DNA from: Melioribacteraceae bacterium
GTDB lineage: Bacteria > Bacteroidota > Ignavibacteria > Ignavibacteriales > Melioribacteraceae
NCBI GenBank assembly: GCA_021647785.1
Contig: JAKIUC010000038.1
Location: 1 to 42,745, forward strand
Length of the DNA stretch: 42,745 nt
Direction: 5' to 3'
A program made the position numbers and the translations under genes. Below the pieces are notes generated by a model that did not search any database, was not told the origin of the DNA, and worked only from the letters and a program-made list of their open reading frames with translations. Below, in pieces: positions 5,309 to 35,538 of the stretch. Each line of letters starts with the position of its first letter. Position 1 is the first letter of the stretch.

Positions 5309-6634
5309 ATGGATAAAGATTTACCCTTAGAAATATTAGATTCTCTCTCCGAAGGAATAATCACGCTCGATAAAGAGTTTAAAATAACTTTCATTAATCT
5401 TGCCGCTGAAAGAATTACCGGATTACGAAAAAACGAGGTTTTCGGACGGCTGTGCAAATCAGTTTTCCAATCCGATTGGTGTAAAACCGCTTGCCCCATA
5501 AGACAAATTCTTGAAACGGGCAACAGTGTCTTCAATTTTAACAACCGGATAATCACAAAAGACGGGATGAAAATCGACGTAAAGATAAACGCAACGGTTC
5601 TGAGGGATGAAAATTCAAAACCGGTCGGCGGCGTAATTTCGTTCGTTGATATTTCCCACATGGAAAACGTAGAAAAAATACTCAAAGAACATTCCGACTT
5701 TTACGGTATTGTAGGAAACTCGCCGAAGATGAAAGAGATTTACGAACTGATAAACGAGATCTCCGATTCGGACGCACCGGTATTAATTCAAGGCGAAACG
5801 GGCACAGGAAAGGAACTGGTTGCAAACGCAATTCAAGAGACAAGCAAAAGAAAAAGGAATCCTTTTCTTAAAATAAATTGCGTCGTCTTTCCTACGGAAT
5901 TGCTCGCAAGCGAATTGTTCGGACACGTAAAAGGTTCGTTTACCGGAGCCGAACGCAACAGAAGCGGGCGCTTTGAGCTGGCAAACACGGGAACGATTTT
6001 TTTGGATGAAATTTCGGAAATGTCGCTGCAAATGCAGACACACTTGCTGAGAATTCTGCAGGATGGAACTTTCGAACGCGTGGGCGATTCGATTACAAGA
6101 AGCACCGACGTAAGAATAATAGCCGCCGCTAATATCGACGTGGAAGAAGCGATAAAAAATAAAGATTTCCGCGAAGATTTGTATTTCAGAATAAATGTCA
6201 TCCCAATTAATTTGCCTCTGCTGCGAGAAAGGAAAGAAGATATTCCGCTGCTCGTAAATCATTTCATAAAAAAGTTTTCGCTGGTTTATAAAAAGCCGAT
6301 TGAAGGAATAGAAAAAGAAGCTCTGAATCTTTTAATCAATTTTGATTGGCCAGGAAATATCCGTCAATTGAAAAACGCAATTGAGTACGCATTTGTCCGC
6401 TCGCATCAAGATAAAAATATTTGCCTTTGCTGTCTCCCTTCCTATCTGGGAATAGAAGAAAAATGTCACAACAAAAATTTTCCCGTTAAGCACCAGGAAT
6501 ATATCTCGATGGGAAAACTGCTGCATCTGTTGGAAGATAACGGATGGAATCAAACCAAAGTCGCCGAAATTCTCGGTGTAAACAGAACTACTGTCTGGCG
6601 AAAAATCAAGGAATTCGGTTTGGTTCACGAATAA
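5309..6634 (+). CDS. sigma-54-dependent activator, PAS / AAA+ / Fis-type HTH
   Basis: A 441-residue enhancer-binding protein. Residues 1-~120 are a PAS sensor with a Cys cluster (C49, C58, C62; WCKTACPIRQ) that could bind a redox cofactor or metal. Residues ~132-365 are the AAA+ domain: Walker A GETGTGKE (162-169), the sigma-54 contact loop written GSFTGA (209-214; usually GAFTGA), Walker B TIFLDE, and FREDLYFRINV. The C-terminus is a Fis-type helix-turn-helix (NGWNQTKVAEILGVNRTTVW). There is no receiver domain, so it should sense a ligand or redox state directly. The start is supported by the purine-rich GGGAAGGCGG just upstream. The gene faces a site cluster and a -24/-12 promoter, so it most likely activates the cytochrome operon next door. 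Codon use is more GC-rich than its left neighbours. Confidence 0.93.
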   Translation: MDKDLPLEILDSLSEGIITLDKEFKITFINLAAERITGLRKNEVFGRLCKSVFQSDWCKTACPIRQILETGNSVFNFNNRIITKDGMKIDVKINATVLRDENSKPVGGVISFVDISHMENVEKILKEHSDFYGIVGNSPKMKEIYELINEISDSDAPVLIQGETGTGKELVANAIQETSKRKRNPFLKINCVVFPTELLASELFGHVKGSFTGAERNRSGRFELANTGTIFLDEISEMSLQMQTHLLRILQDGTFERVGDSITRSTDVRIIAAANIDVEEAIKNKDFREDLYFRINVIPINLPLLRERKEDIPLLVNHFIKKFSLVYKKPIEGIEKEALNLLINFDWPGNIRQLKNAIEYAFVRSHQDKNICLCCLPSYLGIEEKCHNKNFPVKHQEYISMGKLLHLLEDNGWNQTKVAEILGVNRTTVWRKIKEFGLVHE

Positions 6635-6642
6635 TTTTTTCA

Positions 6643-6736
6643 TTGCAACGCTTTTGCAACATTCTGCAATGTTCCTTCCATTCTATTAAAAAACAAAGAC
6701 TTACGGATACCAAGACCTCTGCAACATATTTGCAAC
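6643..6736 (+). promoter_or_regulatory. cluster of TTGCAAC-type sites, probable upstream activator sites
   Basis: Five near-identical sites lie in the gap after the activator gene: TTGCAAC at 6643 and 6654, CTGCAAT at 6664, CTGCAAC at 6719, TTGCAAC at 6730. Neighbouring sites are 10-11 bp apart, one helical turn, so they present on the same face of the DNA. The cluster ends about 45 bp upstream of the -24/-12 element. That is the usual position for enhancer sites of a sigma-54 activator; binding by the 5309-6634 product is inferred. Confidence 0.7.
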
Positions 6737-6779
6737 ACCAAAACGCTTCAAATTCGGACTAAAACAAACCAATTAAAAA

Positions 6780-6796
6780 CGGCAAGATAATTGCAC
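6780..6796 (+). promoter_or_regulatory. sigma-54 (-24/-12) promoter
   Basis: CGGCAAGATAATTGCAC contains GG (6781-6782), ten bases, then GC (6793-6794). This is the invariant spacing of sigma-54 promoters, with GGCA and TTGCA as in the consensus. The predicted transcript start, about 11-12 bp after GC, falls near 6805. That is only a few bases before the ATG at 6810, so translation may start nearly leaderless or at the in-frame ATG at 6819. Confidence 0.75.
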
Positions 6797-6809
6797 TATA
6801 TTTAATATT

Positions 6810-7253
6810 ATGAGCGAAATGCTGGCAAATCAATATTTTATATCGGAAAGATATTTCGAGGCGTTGGAAGAATATTCGAAACTTACTCCCGAAAGAATTA
6901 ACGACCCGATAATAAAAATGAAAATTATCATTTGTGCGGCACTGAATAAAAATTTCGAAAAAGCTCTTTCATTACTCAAAGAAATACCGGTGGATGAAAA
7001 TTCATCGTACTACGGATTAAAACTGTTAAAGGAAATTTATCTTTGCGAAAAAATGCTGGAACAACTTGAAAAGCGAAAAAATCCTAATTCAGAAAACGAT
7101 GAGGCAAAAAGAATGCTGATGGCAATTTTAAGCCGCTTCACGGATAGAAAGAAATCGCTAGAATATTTTAACGGACTGAAAAGTTCTGGTTATTCAGACA
7201 TTGTAAATGACTTTTTATGTTCTATTAAAGAAATAAAACAGACAACAATTTAA
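6810..7253 (+). CDS. small helical-repeat (TPR-like) protein
   Basis: 147 residues with no signal peptide, so probably cytoplasmic. Residues ~10-70 show paired helices with TPR-like spacing (YFEALEEYSKL, NFEKALSLLKEI), and the rest is predicted helical. No catalytic motif is seen and I do not recognise a named family. It is the first gene behind the sigma-54 promoter and ends 11 bp before the cytochrome gene, so the two are almost certainly co-transcribed. It could be an assembly or regulatory partner of the cytochrome. The start at 6810 is chosen for its open frame; ATG 6819 (fourth codon) is an alternative given the predicted transcript start. Confidence 0.7.
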   Translation: MSEMLANQYFISERYFEALEEYSKLTPERINDPIIKMKIIICAALNKNFEKALSLLKEIPVDENSSYYGLKLLKEIYLCEKMLEQLEKRKNPNSENDEAKRMLMAILSRFTDRKKSLEYFNGLKSSGYSDIVNDFLCSIKEIKQTTI

Positions 7254-7264
7254 GGAGTATTCTC

Positions 7265-8947
7265 ATGAAAACAGTAACTCTATTATTTTTTACGATTTTA
7301 TTCACCATTTCTATTTCTGCTCAATCCACATTGGACTGTAGCGAATGCCACGTCGCAATTGTCAATATGTGGAACGGCGGCAATCACGGTACAACGCAGA
7401 TAGACGTTGCCGATGAATTGGCGGGTGAAAGAGCGGGAGAAACACCTGACGAAGTAATTAACGGAAGCGACCCCGAAGATTGCATCTCCTGTCATGGTGC
7501 ACTGGCGGTAACGGCAAACGAGGGAATGACCGAACCTGAAGCGCTGGCGTATTTCTTTTCGACCGAAGGCGGAATTTTTACTGCGAACACGCAAGCGTTA
7601 AATACGGAACAGTGGCCAAACGTGGCGTGCGTTACTTGCCACAACGTTCCCGATAATCATCCGGTTGCAATGCCCACATTTGCACTATATGATTCCCGGA
7701 ACGCGGCTTATACTGAAATGAACACAACTTCGGAATTGTGCGGACAATGCCACGGCAGTTTGCATTTTGCCGGAACCGACCACTTGCGCCAGGACGCTTG
7801 GGCAAGTAGCAAACACGGACACGGTGGTCTAGCCGACGTGGGCAAAGAATTAACCGAGAACGTCGGATTGACTCCGGACGAAGTAATTGCGGACGAAAAC
7901 TGCATCGCCTGCCACGCTTCGACCGCGGTTTTGGTAAACGGCGGAATGAGCGAAGGCGAAGCACTGGGCTACTTTTTTACAACAACCAACGGGGTAATTA
8001 CTGAAGAAACCGCACCGCAAAATATGGATATGTGGCCCGAAGTAGCCTGCATCACTTGTCATAATCCGCATCAAGCCGGCGGCATTGCATATTTCAATTC
8101 CTCAACGGCAAGTTTCGACGAAATGGCGTCGTCCGATCAATTGTGCGGACAGTGTCACGGAAACCTCAGATTCCCGAATACCGACCATTTAAGCTACAAT
8201 ATTGTGCAGGGAACCGGCGGCGTTGACGTTCCCGACCAAAAAACTATGCCCGGAATTAAATGCATTGATTGCCACATGGTGGAAGGTACTGAGGATTCTC
8301 AATCGGCTATGTTTGCGGGGCATTTATGGAAAGTTTTCGTAGAAGAAGATGGAAGCGTTACAACTTCGTGCAACAGGGCGGACTGCCACCCCGATATGAG
8401 CGTAGCCGACGCGGTAACGGCGGTTGAATTATTCCAAAACGAATTCGCCGATTTATTCGCAACAGCCGAAGTAAAACTTACCGAAGCCGAAGAATTTATG
8501 GTTGGAGAGAACAATCCGGTAAAACTTCAAAAACTTGCCGACGCACAGACTAACTTTGCCCTTGCCGAAGGTGACGAAAGCGGCGGCGTTCATAATCATA
8601 ACTACGGTATGGCTCTCTTGAACGACGTAATTGATAAAGTAGAATTCATTGTTACCGGAATTGACGACAGTCCGGCGATAATTAAAGAATTCGCTTTGTT
8701 CCAAAACTACCCGAATCCGTTCAATCCTTCTACGATAATAAAATATCAAATTTTCAAAAGCTCAAAAGTAACAATTGAAGTCTTTGACATTTTAGGAAAA
8801 AAAATAACAACGCCGGTTGATAAATATCAAACAACTGGTTCTTATCAAATTAAATTTGAAGCTTCAAATATGCCTGCGGGAGTTTACTTCTACAGAATGA
8901 AAGCCGGTGCTTTTGAATCGGCAAAGAAATTAATTTTGCTGAAGTAA
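7265..8947 (+). CDS. secreted multiheme c-type cytochrome (nine heme motifs) with T9SS sorting domain
   Basis: 560 residues with a signal peptide ending near residue 20 (SISAQ). Eight CXXCH motifs start at residues 25, 73, 122, 159, 213, 262, 294 and 333; a ninth, CNRADCH at 369, is CX4CH. Residues ~62-173 and ~203-308 are a tandem duplication (PDEVI, CxxCH, WPxVACxTCHN, LCGQCHGxLxF, TDHL in both). Residues ~385-460 are helical and the C-terminus is a Por sorting domain (NYPNPFNPST, ending KKLILLK). It should be heme-loaded outside the cytoplasm and displayed at the cell surface, a plausible extracellular electron carrier or nitrogen- or sulfur-compound oxidoreductase partner; the substrate cannot be read. 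A clear ribosome site (AAGGAG) precedes the ATG. Confidence 0.92.
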   Translation: MKTVTLLFFTILFTISISAQSTLDCSECHVAIVNMWNGGNHGTTQIDVADELAGERAGETPDEVINGSDPEDCISCHGALAVTANEGMTEPEALAYFFSTEGGIFTANTQALNTEQWPNVACVTCHNVPDNHPVAMPTFALYDSRNAAYTEMNTTSELCGQCHGSLHFAGTDHLRQDAWASSKHGHGGLADVGKELTENVGLTPDEVIADENCIACHASTAVLVNGGMSEGEALGYFFTTTNGVITEETAPQNMDMWPEVACITCHNPHQAGGIAYFNSSTASFDEMASSDQLCGQCHGNLRFPNTDHLSYNIVQGTGGVDVPDQKTMPGIKCIDCHMVEGTEDSQSAMFAGHLWKVFVEEDGSVTTSCNRADCHPDMSVADAVTAVELFQNEFADLFATAEVKLTEAEEFMVGENNPVKLQKLADAQTNFALAEGDESGGVHNHNYGMALLNDVIDKVEFIVTGIDDSPAIIKEFALFQNYPNPFNPSTIIKYQIFKSSKVTIEVFDILGKKITTPVDKYQTTGSYQIKFEASNMPAGVYFYRMKAGAFESAKKLILLK

Positions 8948-8959
8948 AATTTTCGTTTT

Positions 8960-8989
8960 GTCAGAGTTCCTTTAATGAGGAACTCTGAC
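8960..8989 (+). terminator. terminator hairpin after the cytochrome gene
   Basis: A perfect 11-bp stem (GTCAGAGTTCC, 8960-8970; GGAACTCTGAC, 8979-8989) with an 8-nt loop lies 13 bp after the stop codon. A modest AT-rich run (ATAAATATTTTT) follows. It closes the sigma-54-controlled operon. Confidence 0.75.
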
Positions 8990-9325
8990 ATAAATATTTT
9001 TAGCAATATCAAACTAACTTATGATGTAACCGCTGACTTTATGTCTGCGTTGGAATCAAGAGAAGTATAGTAAAACAAAACCGTCTTCATAAAAGTTTAT
9101 TACTCAATTATAGTTGTCGGAACTGAAGGCGTAAAATATGTTACTAATGATATTTTCTCAAAACTTGCAACAGAATCGATATTCCACAATTAAAGATTTC
9201 TCTTTTAGCAAAAGCAGTAATACGTTTTTTGATAAAATTTTGTTTTGGAAATAAATATGTACTTGTCTAATTCACTAAATGGTAGTATTTTTAGTGAACC
9301 AATTCACAGATAGTTAGGCTATTCT
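8990..9325. other. gene-poor gap with no convincing feature
   Basis: About 335 bp between the cytochrome terminator and the DUF4143 gene. A 39-codon open stretch without a start codon ends at a TAA near 9194; its peptide includes VVGTEGVKYVTND. It could be a gene remnant, but I do not recognise it. It marks the right edge of the more GC-rich block. Confidence 0.3.
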
Positions 9326-10450
9326 ATGATTAAGCGAAAATTAACTGAATTTATCAAAAAAGATTTTTTCAAAAATAAAGCAATAATTATTTATGGGGCA
9401 AGGCAAGTTGGCAAAACAACACTTCTCAATCAATTGGCAGAGAGTATCTCAGATGATATTTTGTGGCTAAATGGAGACGAACCTGATATACGCAGTTTTT
9501 TTGAAGACGCTACTTCATCAAAATTGAAATTGCTTATAGCAAAACATAAATTTGTATTTATAGATGAAGCACAAAGAATTGAAAATATTGGGATAATAAT
9601 AAAATTAATAGTTGATAATATTTCAAACATTCAATTAATTGCTACTGGTTCTTCCGCATTTGAACTTTCGGATAAAATAAAAGAACCTTTAACTGGACGT
9701 AAATTTGAGTTTACACTCTATCCTATTTCTTACGAAGAATTAGTTAACCATTTTGGAATAATTGAAGCACGCCGATTATTGGAATTTACTTTACAATTTG
9801 GTTCGTACCCAGAAGTTGTAAATAATTTTTCTGATGCACGCAGAACTATAAATCTTATTGCCGATAGTTATCTTTACAAAGACCTTTTTACTTACGAAGG
9901 ATTAAAACGACCTAATTTACTTCTAAAAATCTCCCAAGCTCTTGCACTTCAAGTAGGTAATGAGGTTTCATATTCCGAAATTGCACAATTAGTAAATGCC
10001 GATAAAAATACTGTTGATAAATATGTACACCTACTTGAACTCGCTTTTATAATTTTTCGCCTTCCATCTTTAAGCAGAAATATGAGGAATGAAATTAAGC
10101 GTGGTAAGAAAATATATTTTTGGGATGTGGGTATAAGAAATGCTTTAATTTCTAATTTTTCAGGAACAAATCTGAGAACAGATATAGGGGCAGTATGGGA
10201 AAATTATTTTATTAGTGAAAGATTAAAATTTGTAGATTATAATAATATTTACTCTCAATCATATTTTTGGCGTACTAAAACTAAAAGTGAAATAGATTAC
10301 ATTGAAGAACGCGAAAATACTTTTTACGCTTTCGAACTTAAATGGAATCCTAAAGCTCGTGCAAAAATTCCAAATTCATTTTTAGATAATTACACAAATA
10401 ATAAAACGTATATTGTAACTAATAATAATTTCGACGAGCATCTTCTTTAG
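9326..10450 (+). CDS. AAA-family ATPase with DUF4143 domain
   Basis: 374 residues. Walker A GARQVGKT (about 24-31), Walker B FVFIDEAQ, then ATGSSAFEL. A winged-helix/DUF4143 C-terminal part follows, with a PD-(D/E)XK-like end (FWRTKTKSEIDYIEE, FYAFELKWNP). Members of this family are common in accessory regions of bacteria and archaea; their function is poorly defined, and a mobile or defence-associated role is only suggested by context. Length is close to normal. The last codons (CTT CTT TAG) lie inside a remnant of an ISL3-type transposase gene (10441-10494), so the natural stop has been replaced, probably changing only the last few residues. Confidence 0.88.
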   Translation: MIKRKLTEFIKKDFFKNKAIIIYGARQVGKTTLLNQLAESISDDILWLNGDEPDIRSFFEDATSSKLKLLIAKHKFVFIDEAQRIENIGIIIKLIVDNISNIQLIATGSSAFELSDKIKEPLTGRKFEFTLYPISYEELVNHFGIIEARRLLEFTLQFGSYPEVVNNFSDARRTINLIADSYLYKDLFTYEGLKRPNLLLKISQALALQVGNEVSYSEIAQLVNADKNTVDKYVHLLELAFIIFRLPSLSRNMRNEIKRGKKIYFWDVGIRNALISNFSGTNLRTDIGAVWENYFISERLKFVDYNNIYSQSYFWRTKTKSEIDYIEERENTFYAFELKWNPKARAKIPNSFLDNYTNNKTYIVTNNNFDEHLL

Positions 10451-10494
10451 ACTCGACAACTATTGTGCCTAGCACATCAAAATAAAATATAGCC
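10441..10494 (+). mobile_element. remnant of an ISL3/ISAon1-type element end
   Basis: These 54 bp match, with about three mismatches, the reverse complement of 27699-27752: the last codons of the transposase plus the terminal repeat (GCCTAGCACATCAAAATAAA). No other part of that element is present. The inner breakpoint falls within the last codons of the DUF4143 gene and the outer end is 3 bp from the stop codon of the oxidoreductase 3' fragment. This suggests an IS insertion followed by deletion. Confidence 0.85.
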
Positions 10495-10497
10495 CAA

Positions 10498-10641
10498 TTA
10501 CCCACTACACTCATCAACCAAATAAATAATTGAACGATACTCAATATCACTATTGTACGACGAGCCTATCTCGCAAGTTTTACTGTTCGAATATCCTTCG
10601 TGACACAATTCTGTTAACTGTGGTTTCAATTCTTTCAATTT
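10498..10641 (-). pseudogene. 3'-end fragment 1 of the FAD/Fe-S oxidoreductase gene
   Basis: On the minus strand this encodes LKELKPQL, HEGYSNSKTCEIG, EYRSIIYLVDEC and a stop: the last ~45 codons of the intact gene at 15936-18767, still in frame. Upstream of the homologous part the frame runs on briefly (to 10689) without resemblance to the parent. It lies between the IS remnant and the first TA pair, in the same orientation as the parent gene. Confidence 0.88.
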
Positions 10642-10719
10642 TAATCTGTGATTTTTACCCAAATTATTGTAAATTATTAACCGTAGCACGAACTAAGATT
10701 ATTTTAAGGATAAGATATT

Positions 10720-10944
10720 ATGCATACTGTAACAGTTAAAATAAAAGAAAGAGCATTTGATAAAGTAATGTATTTGCTTGAACAACTAAAAGATGATGTG
10801 CAAATAATTGAAAAACATGAGTTTGATTTAGAAATAATCAATAAAGACGATTCTGATTTCAAATATATTTTAGATGCAAGAAAAAGGAGAGAAGAAGGAG
10901 AGAAGACATATTCGCTAGATGAAGTAATTAAAAACTTAAGATGA
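10720..10944 (+). CDS. antitoxin of RelE-type TA pair, copy A
   Basis: 74 residues, starting MHTVTVKIKERAFDKVMYLL. It is probably the antitoxin because it is small, charged, upstream of a RelE/ParE-like gene and overlaps it by 4 bp (ATGA). The C-terminal part (YILDARKRREEGEKTYSLDE) resembles the toxin-wrapping tail of many type II antitoxins. About 92% identical to copy B at 15463-15687. Such pairs are usually autorepressed; the upstream AT-rich region, which also contains the oxidoreductase fragment, is shared with copy B. Confidence 0.85.
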   Translation: MHTVTVKIKERAFDKVMYLLEQLKDDVQIIEKHEFDLEIINKDDSDFKYILDARKRREEGEKTYSLDEVIKNLR

Positions 10945-11183
10945 AAATTCTAATTCAGAAAAGTGCAATAAAAGACTTGAAAAAAATTGATAATAAGTCT
11001 GTTCAAACAATATTACAAAACCTATCAAATCTTGAAATTTATCCTAAAACTACAAACATTAAAAAACTAAAAAGTCACTATCCACCATTCCGATACAGAG
11101 TAGGGAATTATAGAATTCTATTCGATGTGGATAATGACGAAATTATTGTTGTAAACATTAAACATCGCAAAGACTCTTATTAG
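10941..11183 (+). CDS. RelE/ParE-family toxin, copy A
   Basis: 80 residues with the RelE/ParE core: an N-terminal helical part (QKSAIKDLKKIDNK), then KLKSHYPPFRYRVGNYRILF and the final strand VVNIKHRKDSY with conserved Arg and His residues. RelE proteins cut mRNA on the ribosome and ParE proteins inhibit gyrase; the sequence alone does not separate the two, though the HRKDSY ending favours RelE. Translationally coupled to the antitoxin (4-bp overlap). About 89% identical to copy B at 15684-15926. Confidence 0.9.
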   Translation: MKILIQKSAIKDLKKIDNKSVQTILQNLSNLEIYPKTTNIKKLKSHYPPFRYRVGNYRILFDVDNDEIIVVNIKHRKDSY

Positions 11184-11192
11184 ACTATAATA

Positions 11193-11316
11193 CTATCTAC
11201 CACACTCATCCACCAAATAAATAATTGAACGATACTCAATTCCACTATTGTAAGATAAACCAATCTCACATGTTTTACTGTTGGAATATCCTTCGTGGCT
11301 ACTTTCTGTTAATTGT
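11193..11316 (-). pseudogene. 3'-end fragment 2 of the FAD/Fe-S oxidoreductase gene
   Basis: Encodes on the minus strand LTESSHEGYSNSKTCEIGL, then SGIEYRSIIYLVDEC, ending GR and a TAG stop. It corresponds to the last ~40 codons of the intact gene. Differences from the other copies are largely silent. It begins 10 bp after toxin A ends, just as the intact gene's stop lies 10 bp after toxin B. Confidence 0.86.
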
Positions 11317-11354
11317 ATTCGCTTAATTTAGGTAAAATATTTGTATATTTGACT

Positions 11355-11762
11355 ATGAATGAAAAGCCAATAGAAAAAGAAAAGATTATCACTCATTGGG
11401 TTGAAAACTCTACAGAAGACTATAAAACCATGCTAACTTTATTTGGTGCAAGAAGGTATAGTTGGTCATTGTTTGTTGGACATTTAGTAATTGAAAAATT
11501 GTTAAAGGCATATTATGTAAAAACAAATAATGGTTATCCACCCTTTATTCATAATTTATTGAGACTTGCAGTAGCTTCAAAAATTTTAGTTTCAGATGAA
11601 CTAAAACTAAAATTAACTACTATTTCAGCATTTAATATAAATGCAAGATATGACGATTATAAAAACAGTTTTCACAAAAGGTGTACTCCTGAATTTACAT
11701 CGGAATGGATAAACAAAATTAAAGAGCTAAGATTATGGATAATAGAACAAATAAAAGCATAA
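11355..11762 (+). CDS. HEPN-domain protein (toxin-like half of a HEPN/MNT pair)
   Basis: An all-helical protein of 135 residues if started at the ATG at 11355; a TTG start at 11313 would lie inside the oxidoreductase fragment and is unlikely. The HEPN pattern is visible: SLFVGHLVIEKLLKAYYV followed by PFIHNLLRL, with an ARYDDYKNSF segment later. HEPN proteins of this kind pair with a minimal nucleotidyltransferase. In characterised pairs the HEPN protein is an RNase toxin neutralised by the MNT partner, often by adenylylation. It overlaps the MNT gene by 28 bp. I cannot confirm an RX4-6H catalytic motif. Confidence 0.82.
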   Translation: MNEKPIEKEKIITHWVENSTEDYKTMLTLFGARRYSWSLFVGHLVIEKLLKAYYVKTNNGYPPFIHNLLRLAVASKILVSDELKLKLTTISAFNINARYDDYKNSFHKRCTPEFTSEWINKIKELRLWIIEQIKA

Positions 11763-12073
11763 GTGCGTATATATCTTCAGTAGCCGAAAGGAACTCTAAT
11801 TTACTAAAAGCCTATCTGTTTGGTTCATATGTAAAAAAAAAGGATGTTGCTGATAGTGATATAGATTTAGCATTAATAATTAATAATTTAGATGATGACG
11901 AGCGTTTTGATTTACAAGTAGAATTAATGCTATTGGCATCCGATTTTGATTTGCGAATTGAACCACATCCAATATCGAATAACGATTTTAATTACAACAA
12001 TTCCTTTGTAGCAGAAATTATAAAAACTGGAATTGAGATAGAACCCAGTTCGCCAAATAAATGGTATAGTTAG
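11735..12073 (+). CDS. MNT-type nucleotidyltransferase (antitoxin-like half of HEPN/MNT)
   Basis: 112 residues with the minimal nucleotidyltransferase signature LFGSYVKKKDVADSDIDLAL, i.e. GS-X10-DxD, giving the metal-binding Asp pair. In HEPN/MNT systems this protein is the antitoxin and can modify its partner with AMP. It starts inside the 3' end of the HEPN gene (28-bp overlap), so the two are co-translated. The pair sits between oxidoreductase fragments 2 and 3, in a region with two other TA pairs. Confidence 0.86.
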   Translation: MDNRTNKSISAYISSVAERNSNLLKAYLFGSYVKKKDVADSDIDLALIINNLDDDERFDLQVELMLLASDFDLRIEPHPISNNDFNYNNSFVAEIIKTGIEIEPSSPNKWYS

Positions 12074-15935: not shown

Positions 15936-18767
15936 CTACTTGCTACATTCATCAACCAAATAAATAATTGAACGATACTCAATACCACTGTGATATGACA
16001 AACCAATCTCGCAAGTTTTACTGTTTGAATACCCTTCGTGGCAATTTTTGGTTAATTGTGGTTTTAAATCTTTTAATGCCGATTCATTTAACTCAGGAAA
16101 GTTGAAACCCCTATCCCCGGCAAACCCACAGCAGGTAACGTTCTCCGGAATTATCACATCTGTAGCACAAGCTTCTGCTACTTTTATAAACTTATTAGTA
16201 AATCCCATTTTTGTTGAACTACAAGTAACGTGAACTGTAATTGTTTTATCCTGTTTTGTAAGTTCTAAGTTGTCGAGCAGATAATCGCTAATAAATTCAA
16301 CAGGTTCGTATAACTTAAGTCTGTTTCCCCCTTTTAATTCAAGGCTATTCTTTGTTGTCTGCAAGCAGGGAGAGGTATCAAACAATATTGGATATTTGCC
16401 ATTCTCTGAAATTTCAATTAATTCTGCAATTAGTTCATCCGATTTTTTATGCCCCACTTCGTTATGCCCTTTACTAAGCCATGGCATTCCGCAGCAAAGG
16501 TTGTTAATATTTTTAGGATAAACAATATCATACCCAGCTTTTAGTAATAGCCTATGTGTAACAGTAGTAAGGGATTCATCCGTTTTGCTATCTTTAGGAT
16601 TTCCCATTGTTCTGCTAATACAACTTGGGAAATAGACAACTCTCTTTTCATTAGCCACAGAAATAACTTCTGGCAATAATTTATCAGCAGCCTTTGGCAT
16701 CCATCTATTCCAAAGCGGAAAGTTTTTTCCAAAGATTTTTTTCTTAATTTTTGCCGCTGCTTCAACAATCGAAGTTCCAAAAATAACATGCCAAAAGTGA
16801 ACTAAATCTAATCCAACTTTTATTAGCGACAAAATAATTGATAAATTATCACCAATTACTTTCCCAACATATTTTCCCATTTTAGAAATATTTTCTGCTC
16901 GTAATTCTTTAATCAGCTTGCCAGTATCAATATCAACCGGACAAGCTATAGCACACAATCCATCAGTAGCACAAGTCTCCTCGCCATAATATTGAAACGA
17001 TTCTATAAGTTCATTTTTCTTCTGAACATCATTTCCATTTCGTGTAAGTTTTGCAATTTCACGGTATATAACAATACGCTGTCGTGGTGTAAGTGTTAAA
17101 TCTCTTGATGGACAATGAGGCTCGCAAAAACCACACTCAATACATTTATCAATTATATCACTAGCTTGGGGCATTGTTTTTAGATTATGAACATGCGATA
17201 ATTTATCATCATTAAGTATTACTCCTGGATTAAGAATATTTTTTGGGTCAAATATTTTCTTAATTTTCTGCATTATAGAAAATGCTTTTTCTCCCCATTC
17301 ATATTTTACAAATGGAGCCATATTTCTTCCAGTACCATGTTCCGCTTTGAGCGAGCCTTTATATTTCCCAGCAGTCATTTCAATAACTTCATCCATAAAA
17401 GCTTTGTAGCGTTGTACTTCAGCATCACTGCTAAAATCTTGGTTAAATACAAAGTGCAAATTTCCTTCGAGTGCGTGTCCAAAAATAATTGCTTCATTGT
17501 ACTTGTATTTTTCAAAAAGTGATTGCAGTTCCAAAGCAGCATCGGCAAGTTTATCCAGGGGGAATGCAACATCTTCAATAATGCAGGAAGTCCCACTCTC
17601 TCTCATTGCACCAACTGATGGGAACAAACCTTTTCGGATATTCCATAACTTTAAATACTCAGATGGAACATCAGTAAAATCAACTGGAAGTACCAATTCG
17701 TATTCATCCAAACCCTCTGCTATTTGAGTTATATTGTTTTTTAGTTCTGCTTTATCAATTGCAGAAGTTTCAACAAGAAGTGATGTTACACTTTCGCCCA
17801 ATGTTTTCAAGTACTCTGGCATTCCAGCTTTATCTTCAACTGAACGCATTGATGCCCTATCCATAATTTCGACAGCATCCACTACTTGTTTTTTTAATGT
17901 GGCAACTGCTTTGCAAGCGTCTCTCATATTATGGAACAAGATTAATGCACTTGCTTTATTTGGTGCTTCCAAAACTGTTCTGTAAGTAATCTCTGAAATA
18001 AATCCGAGAGTTCCCTCGGAGCCAATCATTAGGTGTTGAAGAATTTGGATTGGATCAGAAAAATCAACAAGCGAATTTATACTATAACCAGTTGTATTTT
18101 TTATCTTATATTTTTGTTTGATTAAACTTACAAGCTCTTCATCTGAGTTTATCTCTTTGTGCAACTCAATAATTTTATCTATTAATTCATTGTGAGATTT
18201 TTTAAATGCGTTCACAGAATCCAGATTACCAGTATCAAGTAATGTTCCATCATGCATAATTACTTTCATTCTATGGAGTGTGTTGTAACTATTCTTTGCA
18301 GTGCCGCAACACATTCCACTTGCGTTGTTAGCTGCAATGCCGCCAATCATTGCAGCATTAATTGATGCTGGGTCAGGTCCAATTTTTTTATTGTATGGTT
18401 TTAAATAAGCATTTGCAAAACTTCCAATTACCGATGGTTCGAGTGAAATAAATTTTTTATCGTTAGAAATTTTGTAACCTCTCCAATCCCTTTCGGCAAC
18501 CATTAAAACAGAATTGGAAATTGCCTGCCCTGAAAGGCTTGTGCCCGCTGCACGAAACGTAACTGGAACTTTCATTTCGTTACATTTAGTTAGAACAAAT
18601 TTAACTTCCTCCGAGTTTTTAACTTTAACTACAATCTCCGGAACTAATCTATAAAAGCTCGCATCCGTTCCGTAGGCAAGACGGTTTAGTTCATCTGTGT
18701 AAATTTTTTCTTTTGGGATTTTTTTAGTAAACTCGTTATATAGTACGTTGTATTTTTCTTTATTCAT
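15936..18767 (-). CDS. FAD-binding / Fe-S oxidoreductase (GlcD-GlcF-like fusion), probable D-2-hydroxyacid dehydrogenase
   Basis: 943 residues. N-terminal FAD-binding type 4 domain (~40-215: FRAAGTSLSGQA, IGPDPASINAAMIGGIAANN). Middle FAD-oxidase C-terminal domain (~260-510: GSEGTLGFI, FGHALEGNLHFV, EHGTGRNM). Two ferredoxin-type clusters: CIECGFCEPHCP near 540 and CATDGLCAIACPVD near 600. Two CCG (cysteine-rich) motifs: CCGMPW near 757 and CCGFAGDRGF near 879. This matches fused D-lactate / D-2-hydroxyglutarate dehydrogenases such as E. coli YdiJ, which pass electrons to a membrane or cytochrome acceptor. The exact substrate is unknown. Its last ~45 codons are repeated three times downstream (10498, 11193, 15241). 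Confidence 0.9.
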   Translation of the reverse strand: MNKEKYNVLYNEFTKKIPKEKIYTDELNRLAYGTDASFYRLVPEIVVKVKNSEEVKFVLTKCNEMKVPVTFRAAGTSLSGQAISNSVLMVAERDWRGYKISNDKKFISLEPSVIGSFANAYLKPYNKKIGPDPASINAAMIGGIAANNASGMCCGTAKNSYNTLHRMKVIMHDGTLLDTGNLDSVNAFKKSHNELIDKIIELHKEINSDEELVSLIKQKYKIKNTTGYSINSLVDFSDPIQILQHLMIGSEGTLGFISEITYRTVLEAPNKASALILFHNMRDACKAVATLKKQVVDAVEIMDRASMRSVEDKAGMPEYLKTLGESVTSLLVETSAIDKAELKNNITQIAEGLDEYELVLPVDFTDVPSEYLKLWNIRKGLFPSVGAMRESGTSCIIEDVAFPLDKLADAALELQSLFEKYKYNEAIIFGHALEGNLHFVFNQDFSSDAEVQRYKAFMDEVIEMTAGKYKGSLKAEHGTGRNMAPFVKYEWGEKAFSIMQKIKKIFDPKNILNPGVILNDDKLSHVHNLKTMPQASDIIDKCIECGFCEPHCPSRDLTLTPRQRIVIYREIAKLTRNGNDVQKKNELIESFQYYGEETCATDGLCAIACPVDIDTGKLIKELRAENISKMGKYVGKVIGDNLSIILSLIKVGLDLVHFWHVIFGTSIVEAAAKIKKKIFGKNFPLWNRWMPKAADKLLPEVISVANEKRVVYFPSCISRTMGNPKDSKTDESLTTVTHRLLLKAGYDIVYPKNINNLCCGMPWLSKGHNEVGHKKSDELIAELIEISENGKYPILFDTSPCLQTTKNSLELKGGNRLKLYEPVEFISDYLLDNLELTKQDKTITVHVTCSSTKMGFTNKFIKVAEACATDVIIPENVTCCGFAGDRGFNFPELNESALKDLKPQLTKNCHEGYSNSKTCEIGLSYHSGIEYRSIIYLVDECSK

Positions 18768-27720: not shown

Positions 27721-28794
27721 CTAGGCATAATAGTTATCGAGTCTAAAGAAGAAAAAGTCTTTATCTCTGGTTCCATTATTGGAAGTAATAAATCTTTGTA
27801 TCTTACTATTCAACCCTTCAGCTAAAGCATTGGTCTCGCCATTAATAAAATAATTCATTATGTACTCTTCATTAGTTTCTACCATATTTTGGAAATTCGA
27901 CATTTCACTTATGTCAGCTTTTTCAACATTCTCATACCATTGATTTAGTCTTAAACTCATATGTAAGTAACTTTCCCCAATGTTTTTTCTACTCATAAAA
28001 TCTCTAAATTCACACGAAAGTTTGTACGCAGTTTCTATTTCGGGAAATAATCCAAAGAGTATTTCTGCTCTTTTCTTTTCCTTTTTACTCCATTTGTTTT
28101 CGTACTTATAGAGTAAATATCTACCTCTTGCTAAGAGTTCTAATTTAGTCTCTCCGTTAGAGTAGCGTTTCTCTTTGTAGCTAAATTTCCTTTTCTTGAA
28201 TATTATTCCACTTTGTTCACACTCTTTTCTTCTTTCTTTTTCCTCCGACTTAAAAGCAATATATGATTCTCTTTTATCTGTTAATTCTTTCTGTCTGTAA
28301 CGGATTCTTATTGATTGATGAGCATCCATTAAGTTTTTTATTACGTGGAACTTATCTCCTATTTGTATGCTTTTACTAAATATCTGATCGCCTACTTTTT
28401 TATACAAGTTTGAAAAATCTCTTGTCAAGGTTTCTACTTTTGAAGCTACATTCGGGTGTGAATCAAATATTAAGTTTAACTCGAAATACTTCATTGTCTT
28501 GGCTAACATTGCTAGTTTACCACTCTCTCTATTACTTATTATTGTATAGAAATCGTTCCCTATCTGTTTCTCATCTATTGCCATATGGGAACCAAAATTC
28601 TCCTCTCGGAATATCGGAACTTCTATTGTTTCTTCTTTGTCGCCTTGGGAGAAGGTAATATTATTCTCACGTACCGACTCCCCACCATCCTTGGCGTAAT
28701 CACTTAAAACATCTCTATACCATCTATAGAGTTTTCCTCCTTCCAATCGTAGGGCTTTTCCAAAACTTGATATATTAAGTGGACTTTCGTCCAT
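27721..28794 (-). CDS. ISL3-family transposase, catalytic ORF
   Basis: 357 residues. DDE transposase of the ISL3 group: Asp in SHMAIDEKQIG, the GDKFHVIKNLMDAHQSIRIR segment, YLLYKYENKWSKKEKKR, and the C-terminal TNALAEGLNSKIQR with the catalytic Glu. The start (ATG 28794) lies within the 3' end of the upstream ORF, 20 bp before that ORF ends and in the +1 frame. The ORF2 frame has a TAA just upstream of the ATG, so reinitiation or coupling is more likely than frameshifting. The 3' end runs into the terminal repeat. Confidence 0.93.
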   Translation of the reverse strand: MDESPLNISSFGKALRLEGGKLYRWYRDVLSDYAKDGGESVRENNITFSQGDKEETIEVPIFREENFGSHMAIDEKQIGNDFYTIISNRESGKLAMLAKTMKYFELNLIFDSHPNVASKVETLTRDFSNLYKKVGDQIFSKSIQIGDKFHVIKNLMDAHQSIRIRYRQKELTDKRESYIAFKSEEKERRKECEQSGIIFKKRKFSYKEKRYSNGETKLELLARGRYLLYKYENKWSKKEKKRAEILFGLFPEIETAYKLSCEFRDFMSRKNIGESYLHMSLRLNQWYENVEKADISEMSNFQNMVETNEEYIMNYFINGETNALAEGLNSKIQRFITSNNGTRDKDFFFFRLDNYYA

Positions 28795-34080: not shown

Positions 34081-35538
34081 ATGTTAGGATTTCAACAAAA
34101 ATTATCTCTATCGCAGAAACTCTCTCCGCAGCAAATTCAATATCAGAAGTTGTTGCAGTTAAATATTATGTCGTTAGAACAACGCATTAAAGAGGAAATG
34201 GAGATAAATCCGCTACTTGAAGATGAACTTATTGAATCGGGAGAAGTGGAGCAGGAACAGATAGAGAGCGACCCGCTTGATACTACAGATGAATTTGATT
34301 CAGTTTCGGATGCAAGCGAATATGACGCAGAAGATTATATGAACGAGGGAGATTTGGACTCGGATAGACTAAATTTTAGCCGAGATGATGAAGATAGAAC
34401 AAGACCAATTGCACCTCACAAAGTTTCACTTTCAGATAGTTTATTAGACCAACTTCATTTATTGGATGAGCCACGTGAACTTAGAATTTTAGGCGAAATG
34501 ATAATCCAAAGTTTAGATAAAGATGGATATTTAATAGTTGGTCTAGAACCTTTAGTTGAAGATCTTGAAATGTTTGAGCATATAAGTGTTTCAATTGAAG
34601 ATGCTGAAAAATTACTTAAAAAAATCCAGATATTTGACCCGATAGGTATTGCAAGTAGAACATTACAAGAGTGCCTTATTGTTCAGTTAGAAAATCTTGA
34701 ATACGACCCATACTATACTTATTTAGCCAAAGAAATTCTATCAGAACATTATAATGACTTTGTAAATAAGCGTTATAAAAATATTGAATCTAAACTTAAT
34801 TTAACAGATGATACACTTAAACTAACTCTTAATTTAATTCACAAATTAAATCCTAGGCCTGGCGAAGGAAATATTTCTTCCGAGCAAGCAAACCAAATAA
34901 CTCCGGATTTTACAATTGAAAAAATGGATGATAATTTTATTGTATCACTTAATGATAAAAGTGCTCCATCGTTAACACTTAGCAAAACTTACCTCTCGAT
35001 GCTTGAATCGAACAAGCGAAAGAGAAAAATTTCTCCAAGACAAAAAGAGACTCATAAATTTTTACGCGAAAAGTTTGAATCAGCAAAGTGGTTTATTGCG
35101 TCAATTCAACAACGGCGTCATACTCTTATGCAAATAATGACTACAATTTTAGAGAAACAATTTGAATTTTTTGAAATGGGACCAAAGTCGTTGAAGCCTA
35201 TGATTTACAAAGATATTGCAGATGAAATACAAATGGATATTTCTACAATAAGCCGTGTTGTAAATGGTAAGTATGTTCAAAGCCCTGTTGGAATTCATGA
35301 ATTGAAATATTTTTTCAGCGAAGGTTTGGCAACAAGTTCTGGCGAAGATATATCCAACAAACACATTAAAGAGATATTAAAAGAACTGATAGAGGCTGAA
35401 TCTAAAAAGACTCCGCTTAGTGATGATAAATTGAAAGATATGTTAAATGAAAAAGGGATTAAAATTGCTCGAAGAACTGTTGCAAAATATAGAGAAGCAA
35501 TGATGATACCTGTAGCACGTTTACGTAAGGAAGTTTAA
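34081..35538 (+). CDS. rpoN: RNA polymerase sigma-54 factor
   Basis: 485 residues. Region I at the N-terminus (QKLSLSQKLSPQQIQYQKLL, a Gln/Leu-rich activator-contact segment). An acidic region II follows (~55-120). The core-binding domain is ~125-330, then the HTH (DISTISRVVNGKYV) and the RpoN box ARRTVAKYRE near residue 468. It directs RNA polymerase to -24/-12 promoters, which require an AAA+ activator such as the one at 5309-6634. Length is normal. Co-transcribed with the upstream DUF3109 gene; the next gene begins 2 bp after the stop. Confidence 0.96.
   Translation: MLGFQQKLSLSQKLSPQQIQYQKLLQLNIMSLEQRIKEEMEINPLLEDELIESGEVEQEQIESDPLDTTDEFDSVSDASEYDAEDYMNEGDLDSDRLNFSRDDEDRTRPIAPHKVSLSDSLLDQLHLLDEPRELRILGEMIIQSLDKDGYLIVGLEPLVEDLEMFEHISVSIEDAEKLLKKIQIFDPIGIASRTLQECLIVQLENLEYDPYYTYLAKEILSEHYNDFVNKRYKNIESKLNLTDDTLKLTLNLIHKLNPRPGEGNISSEQANQITPDFTIEKMDDNFIVSLNDKSAPSLTLSKTYLSMLESNKRKRKISPRQKETHKFLREKFESAKWFIASIQQRRHTLMQIMTTILEKQFEFFEMGPKSLKPMIYKDIADEIQMDISTISRVVNGKYVQSPVGIHELKYFFSEGLATSSGEDISNKHIKEILKELIEAESKKTPLSDDKLKDMLNEKGIKIARRTVAKYREAMMIPVARLRKEV

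Follow-up and report, generated by a model that had tools for sequence, protein, structure and literature searches.

A predicted one-component sigma-54 circuit for a TPR-type protein and a multiheme cytochrome in a Melioribacteraceae bacterium

The DNA analysed here, hereafter the window, is a 42,745-nt stretch from a Melioribacteraceae bacterium (GenBank assembly GCA_021647785.1, contig JAKIUC010000038.1, positions 1 to 42,745 of the forward strand). At 5309-8947 it carries a block in which the gene for a sigma-54 activator is followed, on the same strand, by a gene for a small tetratricopeptide repeat (TPR)-type protein and a gene for a multiheme cytochrome. An earlier note, made from the letters of this DNA alone, had described the block as a self-contained sigma-54 circuit. 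Its PAS/AAA+/Fis activator, its helical protein upstream of the cytochrome and the rpoN gene in the same window (34081-35538, + strand, with the Pfam AID, CBD and DBD domains of sigma-54) were all borne out, and a terminator-like hairpin of 14 pairs (8959-8990, + strand, -22.4 kcal/mol), which has an A/T stretch behind it and no clean T run, matches the terminator proposed after the cytochrome. Comparison with relatives also supports the local circuit as such, and we regard it as highly likely that the block is a one-component sigma-54 circuit for the TPR-type protein and the cytochrome, and one case of a recurrent module.

The activator gene (5309-6634, + strand) encodes a protein of 441 aa with a PAS domain (residues 15-116), an AAA+ domain and a Fis-type helix-turn-helix (HTH). 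All three domains scored above their Pfam cut-offs (Sigma54_activat 228.1 bits against a cut-off of 20.2, PAS_9 54.9 bits and HTH_8 41 bits), and the structure model of the protein had a mean predicted local distance difference test (pLDDT) score of 83.6. The sigma-54 contact loop reads GSFTGA, which is of the GAFTGA type; its residues G209, F211 and A214 were invariant in 35 aligned activator relatives, where the majority loop is GAFTDA, and the recognition helix of the HTH is LGVNRTTVWR. By its domains, contact loop and Fis-type HTH, together with its predicted site use, the protein would be a bacterial sigma-54 enhancer-binding protein. It is single-copy in its genome, where the family profile gave one match at E 1e-140 and the next-best match to the window protein reached 271 bits over residues 116-438 only. 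In its PAS/AAA+/Fis architecture, upstream dyads and -24/-12 promoter the system resembles NtrC-type enhancer sites and one-component PAS activators, but the window protein differs from the named one-component activators in falling below the cut-offs of all NCBIfam families among the matches listed (25 of 51), with the best scores for PrdR (NF041552; 333.7 of 795 bits) and NifA.

The PAS domain contains three cysteines, C49, C58 and C62, in a C-x8-C-x3-C-P arrangement encoded at 5453-5494 (+ strand). Among the 32 activators that adjoin a TPR gene, C49 and C62 are present in all and C58 in 31. Our own helix assignment places them between E-alpha and F-alpha in the model, and this stretch is a frequent cofactor site of PAS domains. 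A search for PDB relatives of the three-cysteine PAS part returned just short, weak matches in the PAS region. The near-invariant cysteines are compatible with sensing of redox state or of a ligand, without being proof of it.

Between the activator and the TPR gene lies a 175-bp gap with TTGCAAC-like half-sites at 6643, 6654, 6664, 6719 and 6730. The five TTGCAAC-type sites of the earlier note are therefore all present at 6643-6736, but a reading as five independent sites was rejected in favour of two exact dyads and one imperfect dyad, because TTGCAA is self-complementary and TGCAA..TTGCA is the commonest arrangement of neighbouring half-sites beside activators that, like that of the window, carry N or D at a certain position of the recognition helix (the N/D class). 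In this reading, a distal predicted cluster (6643-6670) comprises an exact TGCAA-N5-TTGCA dyad at 6644-6658 and an overlapping imperfect dyad, and a proximal predicted cluster (6719-6736) comprises a second exact dyad at 6720-6734; for comparison, an NtrC site is 17 bp long. Counts of TTGCAAC were rejected as stand-alone evidence: the window has 15 copies where 8.8 are expected, just a mild excess, which 5 of 100 shuffles reach. What makes the predicted sites unusual is their clustering: the 4.25-Mb, 99-contig genome has 20 copies of TGCAA-N5-TTGCA, two of which fall within this gap, and no other pair lies less than 1 kb apart. Paired half-sites in the N/D class are separated by N4 (16 cases), N7 (8) or N5 (6), where N5 is the spacing of the window clade and N4 or N7 that of other loci of the class.

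Half-sites of this kind recur beside related activators and vary with the activator itself. Upstream of the 32 activators that adjoin a TPR gene, GTTGCA/TGCAAC was found in 91 copies against 1.5 in mononucleotide shuffles and GTTTCA (either strand) in 35 copies against 3.4, while two other half-site variants had one copy each. Which of the two prevails follows one residue of the recognition helix: N or D goes with GTTGCA half-sites in 28 of 29 distinct activators, and G or S (the G/S class) goes with GTTTCA half-sites in 34 of 36. This helix-to-site rule holds in 62 of 65 distinct activators, a set in which only identical C-termini were merged and near copies remain, and it was followed by all 14 new activator-adjacent loci of a second sample, two of which are close to copies of others (L150 of L061 and L120 of L122). 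The comparison with relatives hence supports the earlier proposal that the neighbouring activator uses the TTGCAAC-type sites.

Downstream of the predicted sites lies the GG-N10-GC promoter that had been proposed at 6781-6794. This predicted sigma-54 -24/-12 promoter, CGGCAAGATAATTGCA (6780-6795, + strand), has its GG at 6781-6782 and its GC at 6793-6794, and with the T of TGG numbered -26 the predicted +1 is 6806, 4 nt ahead of the ATG of the TPR gene at 6810. Taken alone, the box was rejected as evidence, since sigma-54-like boxes are as frequent in the window as in shuffles (38 with three mismatches or fewer against 37.3 expected). The case for it rests instead on conservation in relatives. 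Of 45 TPR-adjacent loci, among them the window, 42 had a box scoring at least 9 on a scheme of our own with a maximum of 12, a score reached by 151 of 2250 shuffled stretches. The start of the box lies 26-30 nt ahead of the ATG in 40 of the 45 loci and 41 and 44 nt ahead of it in two more. By eye, no box stands at this place in TPR copies that lack a neighbouring activator, with the exception of L070 and perhaps L127. Where the activator is followed first by a gene for a 10-heme protein, a box was found in 16 of 19 loci, starting 42-64 nt before the first start codon of the frame in 15 and at 21 nt in one; in the three boxless loci (L121, L129 and L155) the called start may be too far upstream. 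Apart from these comparisons, the window has further strong sigma-54-like boxes, each scoring 12, at 17900 (+), 25075 (-) and 30714 (-), and locus L090 (G070) has a 653-bp gap between activator and TPR gene with an apparent second box, behind which a broken TPR gene start is seen by eye, an arrangement reminiscent of a duplicated promoter and first gene.

The fixed distance from box to ATG predicts almost leaderless transcripts, above all where the TPR gene is the first of its operon. Only one of the 32 activator-adjacent loci, and 6 of 28 others, have a Shine-Dalgarno-like stretch ahead of the TPR gene. The cytochrome gene next in the operon has one in 29 of 30 loci, by a lenient test that allowed several ATGs; two of the 32 loci had no cytochrome to score. 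In the window, the TPR gene has no Shine-Dalgarno and a predicted leader of 4 nt, and its second ATG, three codons on, may be a start; the cytochrome has an AAGGAG Shine-Dalgarno at 7252-7257 (+ strand), which overlaps the TPR stop codon.

The first gene of the predicted operon (6810-7253, + strand) encodes a protein of 147 aa with no signal peptide evident by eye. We assign it to a family of TPR- or pentatricopeptide repeat (PPR)-type helical-repeat proteins by its repeat profile and by the helix-pair fold of a modelled relative. Designed chains of the PPR type (E 5.6e-20) and the TPR type (E 2.5e-19) matched the profile of this family, and the relative L110 was modelled as an all-helical solenoid with a pLDDT of 91.1. 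At E 0.01, 23 of 30 family members matched TPR_2 and 10 of 30 matched PPR. Single sequences score lower, the window protein reaching at best 14.9 bits against a cut-off of 25 and a member in L083 24.1 against 27, and in curated libraries the protein was matched only by generic TPR/PPR models or weakly, and in part, by repeat-bearing families such as MamA. Fold matches of the model in the PDB had Z scores of up to 9.5, many with a root-mean-square deviation of about 10 Å, a range common for repeats. Residues M1, E3, M4, L5, N7 and F10 were invariant in 61 aligned members, and four cysteines were conserved in nearly all (C42 in 59, C77 in 58, C79 in 60 and C110 in 59). Two loci, L082 and L104, carry two tandem copies of the family.

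Relatives of the TPR-type protein were found in 46 of 97 related genomes by a single-sequence search at E 0.001 and in 49 by a profile of the 61 members at E 1e-12. Across the phylum, 38 of 395 genomes had a match at E 1e-6; 29 of these matches, confined to two families, had E values under 1e-25, and the nine others were weak and partial. A scan of named genomes gave 64 TPR loci, mostly labelled Ignavibacteria, Ignavibacteriales or relatives of Melioribacter, with some under the labels KSB1, Calditrichota, Chlorobiota or Bacteroidetes and one in an Actinomycetota metagenome-assembled genome; some of these labels may be wrong.

Activator and TPR gene share almost the same distribution. Among the 97 related genomes, 47 have both genes, two the activator only, two the TPR gene only and 46 neither. 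An activator profile built from 35 members gave 58 matches of at least 624 bits, followed by one of 529.6 bits clipped near a contig end and then by matches from 523 bits downward; the 58 and the contig-end match were counted as 59 activators. Of these 59, 53 are followed on the same strand by a TPR gene no more than 5 kb away (34 adjacent and 19 at 2-5 kb), and the coordinates place several of the unlinked activators near contig starts. Conversely, 53 of 63 TPR matches have an activator upstream, and in a first regional sample 32 of 60 TPR copies, the window included, stood directly behind one. Distances between TPR proteins correlate with those between activators (r 0.57 for the PAS and 0.68 for the AAA domain; none of 999 permutations was as high, n = 32), which is no proof of partnership, since shared ancestry alone also gives such a correlation. 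By these comparisons, no partner goes with the activator more constantly than the TPR-type protein does, and it is the cytochrome that varies. This suggests that the TPR helper has been overlooked as a component of the system.

The exchangeable genes, or cargo, were typed among the matches listed. Beside the activator/TPR pair, or in one operon with it, some loci have a type IX secretion system (T9SS) cytochrome with nine heme motifs (the window, G030 and G055) and others a T9SS-tailed diheme protein that matched split-Soret cytochrome c in the PDB (1h21, E 9.3e-35). Further types are 7-, 8- and 15-heme T9SS cytochromes, and a 10-heme protein followed by a rhodanese-domain protein and a TPR gene, often with CcsA- and HemA-like genes. 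No PDB match was found for the 10-heme protein at E 0.01, and the accessible part of PMC5701242 names no clear inducing signal for the split-Soret cytochrome. We conclude from these neighbourhoods that the block is one case of a module that recurs in Melioribacteraceae, in Ignavibacteriaceae and in some genomes with a KSB1 or Calditrichota label; its activator and TPR gene appear to stay and its cargo to be exchanged.

The cargo also bears on what the TPR-type protein does. A possible alternative to a partner of the activator, which we hold only tentatively, is a factor for cytochrome maturation or haem supply that would bind apocytochrome, haem or a maturation enzyme, perhaps via its cysteines. 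The TPR gene does adjoin several kinds of c-type cytochromes, it stands before a CcsA-like and a HemA-like gene in at least nine loci as judged by length and sequence (in L066 a Pfam check gave CcsA, HemA, HemC and HemD), and a CcdA-like DsbD_TM gene lies upstream of the activator in L068 and, as judged by eye, in further loci; the four cysteines, too, are kept in 58-60 of 61 members. However, the TPR gene tracks the activator almost one to one and no single cargo, and the cysteines are not needed in every member: C110 is lost in all three members of the window clade, where the window protein retains C42 and C79, L052 retains C42, C77 and C79, and L053 retains none, and the cytochromes still have nine heme motifs. 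We therefore prefer the reading as a partner of the activator.

The cytochrome gene of the window (7265-8947, + strand) encodes eight CxxCH motifs, one CX4CH motif and a T9SS type A sorting tail, which scored above cut-off in PF18962 (45.8 against 27) and TIGR04183 (43 against 23). SprA (TIGR04189), the sole part of the T9SS translocon looked for, was found above cut-off in the same genome, and tail and SprA together support export by the T9SS. The claim of a surface multiheme protein is thereby confirmed for the heme motifs and supported for the location. Full-length orthologs occur in 7 of the 97 genomes (E <1e-160), of which three have the activator and TPR gene beside them; five of the seven have nine CxxCH motifs, and the window and G030 have eight and the CX4CH. 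This ninth motif, at 8369-8389 in the window and likewise seen in the G030 ortholog, is a candidate heme site. The only PDB sequence match at E 0.01 was OcwA of Thermincola (6I5B; phmmer E 2.8e-10), which the accessible part of PMC6703420 describes as a nine-heme terminal reductase of the cell surface related to NrfA, c554 and MccA. The two proteins have nine hemes and nine heme motifs, respectively, and a similar C-terminal part, but the alignment covers just residues 261-459, and the window protein differs in its T9SS tail and its CX4CH motif. It would thus be a remote relative of OcwA.

This kinship, and through OcwA that to the NrfA group, makes a soluble small-molecule substrate possible. 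A surface reductase of nitrite, hydroxylamine or another soluble acceptor, in place of an outlet to minerals or electrodes, is favoured by a Pfam Cytochrom_C552 match above cut-off and by OcwA itself, which according to the same part of PMC6703420 shows slow nitrite reduction and also acts on hydroxylamine. The CxxCK catalytic heme motif of NrfA was, however, found in none of the seven orthologs, and the T9SS tail and the kinship to OcwA are also compatible with a terminal reductase in extracellular electron transfer, so that we consider a small-molecule reductase rather unlikely.

Taken together, we propose that the activator recognises TGCAA-N5-TTGCA dyads of its own, in one cluster at about -163 to -136 and another at about -87 to -70, and opens the -24/-12 promoter at 6780-6795. 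The transcript would start about 4 nt before the TPR gene, carry this gene and that of the cytochrome with its nine heme motifs, and end at the 8959-8990 hairpin. The PAS cysteines may carry a cofactor or act as a redox switch that reports the electron-acceptor or redox state, and the cytochrome would be exported by the T9SS to serve as a cell-surface terminal reductase like its remote relative OcwA. The TPR-type protein would be a cytoplasmic partner in the pathway, kept with the activator whatever the cargo, most likely for feedback or co-sensing, with cytochrome maturation as the next candidate role. A more specific form seems unlikely to us: activator and TPR-type protein, the latter with four cysteines in most members, would make up a two-protein cytoplasmic sensor (of haem, metal or thiol state, for example) that matches transcription of very different c-type cytochrome operons to the capacity for holo-cytochrome. 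Where the TPR gene follows the activator it comes first, on a transcript predicted to be almost leaderless in 40 of 45 loci, and under this reading the cell would produce the sensor partner ahead of the cytochrome and receive from it a feedback on the activator.

Several observations weigh against the circuit and module as drawn here. No box was found near the ATG in 3 of the 45 TPR-adjacent loci (L065, L100 and L151), although L065 and L100 have box-like stretches farther upstream. The helix-to-site rule is broken by L085 and L115 and cannot be judged in L117, its count includes the near copies noted above, and the G/S class has no dominant spacing or arrangement of half-sites. In a tree of 62 activators, built from whole proteins with the recognition helix included, all G/S activators fall into a single group (support 100/99), and the match between residue and site therefore counts as one event; many independent co-changes of helix and site were rejected, as one change suffices on the tree. 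The alignment to OcwA is limited in extent, as given above. Finally, four of the seven full-length cytochrome orthologs lie away from the activator, three of them (L015-L017) beside an apparent response regulator and sensor kinase (by Pfam for L015), and the L014 ortholog has neither the activator/TPR pair nor a response regulator and kinase within 1.5 kb on each side. From these neighbourhoods, the cytochrome can change its regulator, while activator and TPR gene go mostly together. The TTGCAAC arrays that the earlier note expected next to homologous cytochromes were present in G030 and G055, whose orthologs keep the activator. We nevertheless regard as very improbable an ordinary promoter, with the TTGCAAC repeats serving another regulator and the sigma-54 box a product of chance, because in spite of a weak sigma-70-like pair at 6773-6802 (9 of 12) and the commonness of single sigma-54-like boxes, neither the near-constant distance between box and ATG nor the agreement of half-site type with the recognition helix of the adjacent activator fits it.

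Elsewhere in the window, the region behind the operon (9326-12073) encodes a DUF4143/AAA_14 ATPase, a ParE-like toxin and a HEPN and nucleotidyltransferase pair in a toxin-antitoxin-like cluster, and an ISL3-type transposase is found at 27721-28794.

The kind of circuit is already known, because a sigma-54 activator has been predicted beside an operon for a multiheme (octaheme) cytochrome in Desulfovibrio vulgaris, DVU3142/ohcBAC (PMC4641369). As in the window, that activator gene adjoins the cytochrome operon, and a sigma-54 promoter and activator sites were predicted by comparative genomics. It differs in its divergent transcription and in its products, a periplasmic cytochrome and two membrane proteins, and the accessible part of the paper mentions no TPR partner; the two systems were compared by description only. 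The RpoN regulon of Geobacter sulfurreducens differs in being genome-wide, with no adjacent dedicated activator described in the accessible part of PMC2725144. Our limited literature search, which left most subscription papers outside, gave no paper on the control of cytochromes in Ignavibacteria and relatives. The additions of the present analysis, predicted from comparison of sequences, would be a TPR partner, a cargo that is exchanged, a start that is fixed and nearly leaderless, and the helix-to-site rule.

The change from N/D to G/S in the recognition helix, with the change from GTTGCA to GTTTCA in the sites, gives Fis-type HTH domains a specificity rule that can be tested directly, and the constant TPR-type partner is an unannotated component. 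A recurrent switch with both its sites and its promoter legible in the sequence also provides a marker of cytochrome operons which may respond to a common kind of signal.

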